Assembly: GCF_001418415.1 (NCBI RefSeq)
Contig: NZ_LIQT01000196.1
Location: forward strand, 1-47,534
Reading direction: 5' to 3'
Length of the DNA stretch: 47,534 nucleotides
Origin: Streptomyces hirsutus
Lineage (GTDB): Bacteria; Actinomycetota; Actinomycetes; Streptomycetales; Streptomycetaceae
Part shown: positions 35,750-37,117 of the stretch, piece by piece
Position numbering within the stretch: the first letter of the stretch is position 1
Layout of the letters: every line of letters starts with the position of its first letter
Made by a program: the position numbers and the translations under genes
The notes under the pieces: generated by a model
The model's database searches: none
The model's input: the letters and a program-made list of their open reading frames with translations, nothing else
Told to the model about the DNA's origin: nothing

Positions 35750-36022
35750 GTGACCGACCACCGCCACGAAGGACCGGGTGAGAACGGCCGGGGCATCCCC
35801 CGGGATCTGCCCGACCAGCAGGCGGGCGAGGGCGAGGACCCCTGGGAGGTCGCCCAGGGCGTCGACGAGGGTGTGGCCGCCGAGGAGTCCGACGCGGATG
35901 CGGCCGCGGAGCGGCAGCCCGACGTCCCCGACACGGACGAGGCCGGGACCGGGCGGCGGGGCGCACCGCACTCGGCCTCCGCCGACCCGGAGCAGCCGGT
36001 ACCGGACGAGCCCACCGGGTAG
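35750..36022 (+). CDS. Small acidic low-complexity protein
   Basis: A 90-residue protein, strongly acidic, with no hydrophobic segment. It begins MTDHRHEGPGENGRGIPRDLPDQQAGEGEDPWEVAQGVDEG and ends in a proline-rich tail. The first 40 residues have the look of a conserved streptomycete small protein; the rest is low-complexity and probably unfolded. CGGAGGAAGGGAG gives a strong ribosome site 6-12 bases upstream of the GTG at 35750, which supports real translation. Function unknown. Confidence 0.65.
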   Translation: MTDHRHEGPGENGRGIPRDLPDQQAGEGEDPWEVAQGVDEGVAAEESDADAAAERQPDVPDTDEAGTGRRGAPHSASADPEQPVPDEPTG

Positions 36023-36097: not shown

Positions 36098-36267
36098 AAA
36101 GAGGAAGCCCCGACCGCGACGGGGGAATCGCGGTCGGGGCGGCTCGGTGGTGGGTACGGAAGGCGGTCGCCTCTCGGCGAAGGCTCCACAGGGCTTCAGC
36201 CGAACGATCGTCCCTGTGGGCGGAAGGGGTGAGGCCCGGGGACACTGTTCCCGCCGTACCCACGTTC
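36098..36267 (-). ncRNA. Candidate free-standing structured RNA with its own promoter and terminator
   Basis: On the minus strand, GTGGGTACGG (plus 36254-36263) pairs with CCGTACCCAC (plus 36150-36159) to close a domain. Inside are a perfect 8-bp stem (plus 36186-36193 with 36212-36219, 18-base loop), a 4-bp stem with GAGA loop (plus 36168-36179) and a short GGGA/TCCC hairpin. Nine bases after the closing stem comes a perfect 13-bp terminator stem (36107-36119 with 36128-36140) and, on the minus strand only, a T-rich tail TTCCTCTTTTCC. Upstream lies GGAAC-N18-GTT (36298 to 36273), a sigmaR-like promoter that would start the RNA at about 36267. No reading frame in it looks like a protein. I do not recognise it as 6S, SRP, tmRNA, RNase P or a known riboswitch. 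Confidence 0.6.
36107..36140 (-). terminator. Terminator hairpin of the candidate ncRNA
   Basis: 13-bp perfect stem with an 8-base loop; on the minus strand it is followed by TTCCTCTTTTCC, so it points to a minus-strand transcript. It may also stop plus-strand transcripts from the small acidic protein gene 85 bases away. Confidence 0.75.
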
Positions 36268-36272
36268 TCTTC

Positions 36273-36298
36273 AACGGAGGACGGTCCCGGTGTGTTCC
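36273..36298 (-). promoter_or_regulatory. GGAAC-N18-GTT (ECF sigmaR-like) promoter of the ncRNA
   Basis: Reading the minus strand, GGAAC (plus 36294-36298) and GTT (plus 36273-36275) are separated by exactly 18 bases, the spacing of sigmaR promoters (GGAAT-N18-GTT). A second GGAAC lies at 36304-36308. Confidence 0.45.
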
Positions 36299-36877
36299 AG
36301 GTGTTCCGGCCGAATGCTCCGACTTTGTGGTGATGCACGTCACCCCGGCCCGGGAACCCTGCGCGAGCGGTACGAACGCGGGCCCACCGGCCTGCCCACC
36401 GGTTCGCAGAGAGCCCCGGGCCGCGGTCGGCCCCGGCGAGCGGTCGGTGAGGGCCGCCCACGCCGGCCGAGCGCAGTCGCCGAGCAGCGACACCCGCAGC
36501 TCCGGCCCGCCCCGTACCGCCGCCGTGCCGACGGCCTCCTCCCCGAGGGTGCACGGGCAGCCGGGCGCCTCACCGGCCACCGCCCTCGGCGCACCTCGCC
36601 CCCGCCCGGCCGGTCAGCACCCGTGCGGGGGTACGGAAGGCCCGGACGAGGCACCCCGGTGGCAGGGACCGCTCCTGCGGAAAGGTGATCCGCTCCAGCG
36701 CCTCGACGGGAGCCATGGGGGCGCCCCGCGCTCCAGGGGCGCCCAGGGCACACGGCCGGACGACGGACGGAACCAGGACAGCGGCCGAAGGCCCCAAAGA
36801 GCCCCGGCGCTCGCTCCAGCCCTCCCCCACCGACACGCAACCCGCGCTCGTCCGGTTTGCGCTCTACGCTCGTATGC
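36299..36877. other. Gap of about 580 bases without a supported gene
   Basis: Several frames are open but all are arginine/proline/glycine-rich, lack ribosome sites and resemble no family I know. The visible structure is a 9-bp perfect hairpin at 36719-36744 (GGGCGCCCC/GGGGCGCCC, 8-base loop) and the -10 of the next gene near 36865. Confidence 0.5.
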
Positions 36878-36878
36878 A
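36865..36878 (+). promoter_or_regulatory. -10 element, leaderless layout, of the 79-residue protein gene
   Basis: TACGCT (36865-36870) is followed by 7 bases and the ATG at 36878, without a ribosome binding site. No clear -35. Confidence 0.35.
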
Positions 36879-37117
36879 TGACCGAAAGCGCGAGCCTCTA
36901 CATGACCCATCCACGGATCATGGTGCTCGGCGTACAGCCCGGTACGCCGCCGTTCCGGATCGTGGAGATCGACGGAGAAGTGATCGGCGAGGCCAAGACC
37001 ATCACCGACGTGCTGCTGGCCGCCGCCGCGTTCGGGATCACCGTCCATGACCTCGACGATCCGGACGTGGTCCGCTGGGTCGGCGGGGACAAGTACACCT
37101 GGACCCCGCGCCGGTAG
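36878..37117 (+). CDS. Small conserved actinobacterial protein
   Basis: A 79-residue soluble protein: MTESASLYMTHPRIMVLGVQPG, then PPFRIVEIDGEVIGEAKTITDVLLAAAAFGITVHDLDDPDVVRWVGGDKYTW. The pattern of short strands around a helix suggests one small alpha/beta domain. I know near-identical small proteins from streptomycetes, without a function. The ATG at 36878 matches the usual N-terminus; an upstream in-frame start would lie in the promoter. It is followed by a strong hairpin shared with the convergent VanZ gene. Confidence 0.75.
   Translation: MTESASLYMTHPRIMVLGVQPGTPPFRIVEIDGEVIGEAKTITDVLLAAAAFGITVHDLDDPDVVRWVGGDKYTWTPRR

Follow-up and report, generated by a model that had tools for sequence, protein, structure and literature searches.

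The gap between genes examined here, in the window (the whole 47,534-nucleotide stretch of Streptomyces hirsutus DNA that was analysed), holds, as far as comparison of sequences can establish it, a real small RNA gene that is common to many bacteria of the class of Streptomyces. Our results support the reading proposed in an earlier note on this DNA, namely a free-standing structured non-coding RNA gene with an ECF-type promoter and its own terminator: its stems carry compensatory changes, its promoter is conserved and no Rfam family matches it. By the same comparisons, this RNA belongs to a family that spans the class, occurs in multiple copies and is also plasmid-borne, and the main Streptomyces locus of the family very probably corresponds, by gene order, to that of scr0792, a small RNA that has been found on RNA polymerase.

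The RNA gene is predicted to cover about 160 nt of the minus strand (36107-36267), on which all its features lie, from a start at about 36267-36263 to the end of the terminator stem. It is preceded by the promoter motif GGAAC-N18-GTT (36273-36298), made of GGAAC at 36298-36294, an 18-base spacer and GTT at 36275-36273, and further upstream by a palindrome, GTGA-N6-TCAC (36330-36343), a possible activator site ending 31 nt from the -35 element. The body is closed by a stem, P1, with its 5' strand within 36250-36263 and its 3' strand within 36150-36163, which counts 10 bp in the window copy (36263-36254 with 36159-36150) and up to 14 in the family. The 5' strand of P1 is followed, on its 3' side, by a conserved unpaired block, ACAGUGUCCCCGGGCCUCACC (36228-36248), by the hairpin P2, GCCCACAGGG...CCCUGUGGAGC (36183-36221), which has a conserved inner loop and an inner stem of 8 bp (36219-36212 with 36193-36186), and by the hairpin P3 (36167-36181), CGCC-GAGA-GGCG at 36179-36168, with a GNRA-type loop. 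The intrinsic terminator (36107-36140) is a perfect 13-bp stem followed by the T-rich run CTTCCTCTTTT. The promoter motif, the 10-bp closing stem, the perfect 8-bp inner stem, the hairpin with a GAGA loop and the perfect 13-bp terminator with its T-rich tail, as listed in the earlier note, are therefore all present on the minus strand, and our covariance model R1 matches positions 36142-36267. The same note had placed the RNA in a gene-poor gap, which is correct in part: the minus strand directly upstream of the RNA contains the remnant of a decayed PHP-domain gene (36413-36716; tblastn E 5e-11, default statistics), a gene that is an open frame in relatives, for instance at locus L027. On the plus strand, small ORFs are found on either side of the RNA (35750-36022 and 36857-37117), both with relatives at other loci.

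When the window sequence is folded on its own, its fold beats 200 of 200 dinucleotide shuffles (z -4.89). The minimum-energy structure obtained in this way pairs the middle of the RNA otherwise, but a fold holding P1, P2 and P3 lies only 0.1 kcal/mol above it for this sequence. The single-sequence fold was dropped for the covariation structure, since covariation favours P1, P2 and P3.

Covariation was assessed in an alignment of 136 non-redundant copies (A1), obtained from 159 copies with enough flank (151 distinct) after removal of near-identical rows (fewer than 5 mismatches) and of chance matches in coding sequence (L149, Aeromicrobium, and L165, Deltaproteobacteria). For the structure made of P1, P2, P3 and the terminator, 24 of 38 pairs show changes on both sides and 95.0% of cells are paired, with a covariation score of 0.268 as compared to 0.141 +/- 0.003 after shuffling and at most 0.105 when the partners are slid. 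RNAalifold, run on the same alignment, gives 38 pairs, 22 of them with compensatory changes. The signal is also found in an alignment of 25 model-found copies (A3, made of 24 matches from 20 loci of other genera and of the third copy of the window's genome), in which the score reaches 0.535, versus 0.146 +/- 0.015 after shuffling and no more than 0.125 with slid partners, and each of the 14 P1 pairs shows changes in both strands; as these 20 loci were chosen because the model matched there, and as A3 and a further alignment, A4, were fitted to the model, their pair counts lean towards it, and the slid controls are given for that reason. The two stems for which the earlier note had called for a covariation check, 36150-36159/36254-36263 and 36186-36193/36212-36219, both show compensatory changes; in P2, double changes affect 6 of 10 pairs in A1, with 99.6% of cells paired. 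Taken together, we consider the covariation seen in these alignments to be decisive for the P1-P3 fold, with the reservation that the pairs of P3 are nearly invariant in A1, so that covariation says little on the pairing of this hairpin. The P3 loop is GAGA in 96 copies, GCGA in 15, GCAA in 1, GCGTA in 16, GCGCA in 3, GCGAA in 1 and something else in 4, which points to a GNRA-like habit in 132 of the 136 copies. In some other taxa, P2 bears a UUCG cap, and in others it is greatly lengthened.

Conservation is not confined to the stems. In A4, at least 95% of the rows retain the CCCCGGG of the unpaired block, a level also reached by the 24 rows from other genera, and P3, the base of P2 and parts of the junction are conserved there as strongly as the unpaired strand. 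In A1, part of this conservation follows from sampling: copies L051-L168 were retrieved with an exact pattern that includes GTGTCCCCGGGCCTCA and GATCG, and the corresponding columns, which form part of the unpaired block, are thus invariant by construction. The terminator stem also covaries in A1 (helices 5 and 6), and a perfect stem of at least 7 bp follows the RNA in 25 of 44 model-found copies under a strict script test, so that a terminator is established for part of the copies only.

Stable folds and open frames are both common at high G+C, and the element might on that account be taken for a chance fold or for a conserved small protein gene. Indeed, the three frames stay open over 165 nt in 105, 77 and 9 of the 136 rows, respectively, as expected at such a G+C content. 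However, the linker between the two conserved blocks differs in length by 1-2 bases in 5 of 136 rows, including the window, and varies more in other genera, so that no single reading frame is kept across copies, in agreement with the early impression that the interval holds no believable protein. With these linker changes, the exact spacing of the promoter and the compensatory changes all against it, and covariation contradicting it outright, this explanation can hardly be credited.

The promoter accompanies the RNA from copy to copy. GGAA[CT]-N18-GTT has a single match in both strands of the window and is present in 130 of the 136 non-redundant copies, the fifth base being C in 115 and T in 15; all other spacers of 14-22 bases together account for three cases in these 136 copies, N16 being never found and N17 once. 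Among the 44 model-found copies, the spacer is N18 in 35 and N21 in one, and among the 29 of them that lie outside Streptomyces, it is N18 in 22 and N21 in one, with no other spacer of 14-22 (two of the copies from other genera, L216 and L220, are near-identical). Elsewhere, the motif has a background of about 1 per 93,000 strand-bases (21 further matches over 1.95 million). In all 35 promoter-bearing model-found copies, GTT ends 5-11 nt before the first position of the model, which places the expected start of the RNA at the base of P1.

The spacing attributed to sigma-R in the earlier note fits the published sigma-R consensus, GGAAT-N18-19-GTT (PMC9205884). The -35 element of the window, GGAAC, shares four of five bases with this consensus, and C is also found at this place in 115 of the 130 family promoters, a departure from the consensus T that weighs against sigma-R. 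A sigma-R-type factor would thus be the one that drives the RNA promoter, as we infer from the consensus spacing. Sigma-E or its relatives are further candidates, as models of sigma-E use a spacer of 16-17 bp and related ECF factors share promoters (PMC6767563); our N16 and N17 counts are expressed in terms of GGAA[CT]-N-GTT and are not directly comparable with that sigma-E spacer, which may be counted from other element boundaries.

The upstream palindrome is found in its exact form, GTGA-N6-TCAC, in 66 of the 130 promoter-bearing copies, at 20 or 21 nt (56 copies), at 10 or 11 nt (9 copies) or at 31 nt (1 copy, that of the window). A looser form, GTG-N8-CAC, is present upstream in 101 of these 130 copies, mostly at 20-21 nt from GGAA and otherwise mainly at 10-11 or 31 nt, and in 3 of 22 promoter-bearing copies outside Streptomyces. 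These positions step by about one helical turn, which suggests an activator bound on one face of the DNA. The palindrome may be a CRP-like site, going by the CRP consensus, and a CRP-like protein could then be the one that binds there.

None of the known RNA families with which we compared the element accounts for it. Rfam release 15, searched at gathering score, gives 0 matches over the window RNA, and the search of this database advised in the earlier note therefore ends without a family; at a relaxed threshold, seven weak matches appear, all far below gathering scores, which we take as chance. A tRNA/tmRNA search finds nothing at the RNA. The 6S RNA model has no match in the window at gathering score and, even with E up to 10, none in the region of the RNA. 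6S RNA is a long rod with a central bubble, unlike the consensus obtained here, in which P1 closes a junction with two hairpins. The Streptomyces small RNAs of Rfam (scr5239, scr1601, scr4115, scr6106 and others) are intergenic, like our RNA, but Rfam release 15 gives no match of any of them to the window; one of them, scr5239, is a 159-nt RNA reported in nearly two-thirds of Streptomyces genomes and folded as five consecutive stem-loops (PMC4365011), as opposed to the P1/P2/P3 junction fold. At the 20 loci of other genera, 5 Rfam matches are found, none of which overlaps the RNA. At locus L205, an Ms_IGR-5 RNA (Rfam RF02471; 1887-2077, minus strand) is encoded on the strand opposite to the RNA, at a distance of about 250 bases.

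A DNA search finds a match in 186 of 295 genomes of the window's genus (E up to 0.001; the weakest matches are uncertain and may be partial). A pattern scan of named genomes returns at least 118 stretches, all from Streptomyces except one from Actinacidiphila, one from an 'Actinobacteria bacterium' and two chance matches. Within the class, the covariance model, built from 42 cores, finds the RNA in 85 of 394 genomes and in 36 of 137 genera, the weakest of these matches being uncertain as the E-values of our home-made models are rough, and in 22 of 40 genomes of the same genus among those listed; a restriction of the RNA to Streptomyces is ruled out by this class-wide search. A broader covariance model gives at least 50 of 200 genomes and 6 of 17 genera of the window's taxonomic family, with up to 7 copies in one genome, and 12 of 396 genomes in a sample of the phylum. 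All 12 belong to the class, and the RNA was not found outside it in this one sample, in which 0 of 9 genomes of one family (f4), among those listed, contain it. All searches of more than 40 genomes were run with strict filters. So patchy a distribution makes a housekeeping function less likely and favours an accessory regulator.

Several genomes carry more than one copy. The window's own genome has three model matches: the second copy (L031, G000:C213) is preceded by GGAAT-N18-GTG and has a different terminator, and the third (L176, G000:C625) has diverged further and lacks a match to the promoter motif. At the 20 loci of other genera, the first model finds 24 matches, and tandem arrays are observed among them, with three copies within 1.4 kb at L196 and two each at L197 and L202, all 7 with their own N18 promoter. 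In G129 (contig C1), two equal copies at 149027 and 8383415 are equidistant from both ends of the 8.53-Mb contig, as expected for the terminal inverted repeats of a linear chromosome.

The RNA is also found on plasmids. A plasmid collection contains 52 matching records (E up to 1e-5), of which 41 are from Streptomyces, 9 from Rhodococcus and one each from Kitasatospora and Nonomuraea, the last being chromosome-sized; at a laxer threshold, E up to 0.01, 59 records match, Prescottella among them, a few of the extra rows spanning little beyond the terminator and not being counted as copies. The model confirms the RNA in 17 of 17 loci fetched from this collection, including one from Prescottella. 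Among the rows listed, one GTPase gene is the only annotated gene under these matches, and two records have no annotation. No phage record matches at E up to 1e-5 and no viral contig matches one exact pattern, and a phage origin of the RNA was rejected on these grounds. Genes for Ku, DNA ligase, HNH proteins and sigma factors recur, irregularly, near some plasmid copies: a Ku or ATP-dependent DNA ligase gene is within about 3.1 kb of the RNA at four linear-plasmid loci (L211, L212, L213 and L221), which may simply reflect the gene content of these plasmids, and a sigma factor gene is within about 1.6 kb on two plasmids (L209 and L225). On the Prescottella equi plasmid p2-WH99 (L218), the RNA lies about 2 kb from erm(46), which adjoins an IS481 transposase gene.

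This carriage raises the possibility that the RNA is an accessory of plasmids and genomes that serves a mobile element, for instance by tuning host transcription for the plasmid, and is not a stress regulator of the host. The model-confirmed plasmid copies, the multiplication within genomes, the patchy distribution and the pair of copies near the ends of the linear G129 chromosome all go in this direction. The same promoter motif, however, accompanies 35 of the 44 model-found copies, whatever their location, and the main Streptomyces locus is syntenic: in the first 30 loci, an SDR gene is found downstream of the RNA in 23, a FUSC-type gene upstream in 19 and both in 17, on the same strand as the RNA, so that this copy looks vertically kept. 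We therefore regard service to a mobile element as improbable, while noting that it is compatible with an action of the RNA on RNA polymerase. A neighbour gene shared by all copies was likewise considered and rejected, as FUSC-RNA-SDR is the arrangement of one Streptomyces locus and the neighbours of the other copies differ.

The SDR gene that follows the RNA on the same strand at this common locus could also suggest a cis-acting leader, i.e., a riboswitch or attenuator of the downstream gene. Such a role is very unlikely: a strong terminator closes the RNA, the downstream genes differ between loci, and the next listed downstream gene is on the opposite strand in the window and at 11 of the 14 annotated plasmid loci (among 17 fetched, with incomplete plasmid gene tables), which argues for a free-standing gene.

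The main locus is what connects the family to a known transcript. In S. coelicoflavus, the order of genes is prsA, EF-G/TetM-type, DUF4230, VanZ, GH16-ricin, orf86, PHP, HAD, FUSC, the RNA, epimerase/SDR, orf90-like and ROK, one further small ORF being doubtful. As prsA is SCO0782 (PMC6344877, PMC8981147) and tetM is SCO0783 (PMC7157823) in the S. coelicolor numbering, FUSC falls at SCO0791 and SDR at SCO0792, so that, by the gene order of this relative, the main locus of the family occupies the SCO0791-SCO0792 slot. The gap between FUSC and SDR in S. coelicoflavus measures 232-298 bases, depending on the start codon, of which the RNA match covers 154; a transcript from a gap so short and so largely filled would almost surely overlap the RNA. 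In stationary S. coelicolor, the SCO0791/SCO0792 gap gives rise to scr0792, which is enriched 712-fold on RNA polymerase and was described, for this one species, as a single RNA of low abundance (PMC11077062); according to the same source, no RNA was strongly bound to HrdB.

The main locus of the RNA family thus very probably corresponds to scr0792, with which it shares this slot by gene order. The window locus lacks FUSC and SDR genes, which in many Streptomyces are the neighbours of the RNA, and the window copy is therefore tied to the main locus only by homology. The sizes fit poorly, scr0792 being about 85 nt long on northern blots (PMC11077062), i.e., about half of the approximately 160 nt predicted here; processing of a longer RNA is one possible reason. 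The available text of PMC11077062 describes no family, promoter or covariation for scr0792, in contrast with the class-wide and multi-copy family presented here, and among the open-licence papers searched, no other names this RNA.

On the basis of these results, the account towards which we lean, with confidence only slightly better than even, is that of an RNA which acts in trans, is transcribed with a sigma-R-type factor and works on RNA polymerase. Under thiol or stationary-phase stress, the RNA would be transcribed from the sigma-R-type promoter, which in Streptomyces often has the palindrome upstream of it, at a distance of one to three helical turns. It would then fold, with the P1 helix closing around the conserved unpaired strand, P2 and the GNRA-looped P3, and would be ended by its own terminator. 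RNA polymerase could finally hold the RNA, alone or with a partner protein, and transcription would be redirected as a result. The action on polymerase is the best-supported step of this trans action, because of scr0792; polymerase binding by the window copy itself, and any regulatory effect, are extrapolated from it. The patchy spread of the RNA (at least 50 of 200 genomes in the family, 22 of the 40 listed genomes in the genus and none of the nine listed for family f4) weighs against this account, as it is unlike that of a housekeeping polymerase regulator.

Another way of acting in trans would be base pairing, the C-rich strand CCCCGGGCCUCACC pairing with the G-rich ribosome-binding regions of mRNAs and blocking their translation under stress. 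The covariation structure leaves this strand unpaired, at least 95% of the A4 copies from other genera preserve its CCCCGGG core, and other small RNAs make use of C-rich loops (PMC3765725). The RNA is also present in multiple and tandem copies. Such copies are a habit of some base-pairing small RNAs. On the other hand, conservation extends beyond a seed, as P3, the base of P2 and parts of the junction share it; this suggests a protein partner or a tertiary fold. In addition, scr0792 was found on polymerase. We thus consider base pairing with mRNAs to be rather unlikely, albeit the most serious competitor of an action on polymerase.

If the link to scr0792 holds, the RNA would join other RNAs that, like it, are structured and free-standing and are associated with polymerase, namely 6S RNA and Ms1/scr3559. 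scr3559 is a separate RNA in S. coelicolor, and the CoRP RNA of Corynebacterium glutamicum, which is lineage-specific, bound to polymerase and was discovered by the same method as scr0792, is set apart by its description, being a 516-nt RNA cleaved into fragments of 318 and 198 nt and encoded between tRNA genes (PMC11077062). It is conceivable, although we would propose it tentatively and with more doubt than confidence, that our family represents a further kind of polymerase-binding RNA beside 6S, Ms1 and CoRP: a class-wide actinomycete family that would be a dedicated output of sigma-R-type ECF factors, multiplied in genomes and borne on plasmids, through which thiol stress, and perhaps plasmids, would reprogramme transcription. 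One of its members would then already have been seen experimentally as scr0792; what appears to be new is the family as such, together with its fold, its promoter, its spread and its presence on plasmids, none of which was found in Rfam release 15 or in the open-licence papers searched.

Our results indicate that the scr0792 locus, as placed by gene order, is home to a strongly conserved RNA family which has a defined fold, includes paralogues and keeps its sigma-R-type promoter motif from genus to genus and on plasmids. The family provides a testable inducing condition, exact stems to mutate and homologues for structural work. If the RNA does act on polymerase, the thiol-stress response of actinomycetes would have an RNA arm, which we did not find described in the open-licence papers searched.
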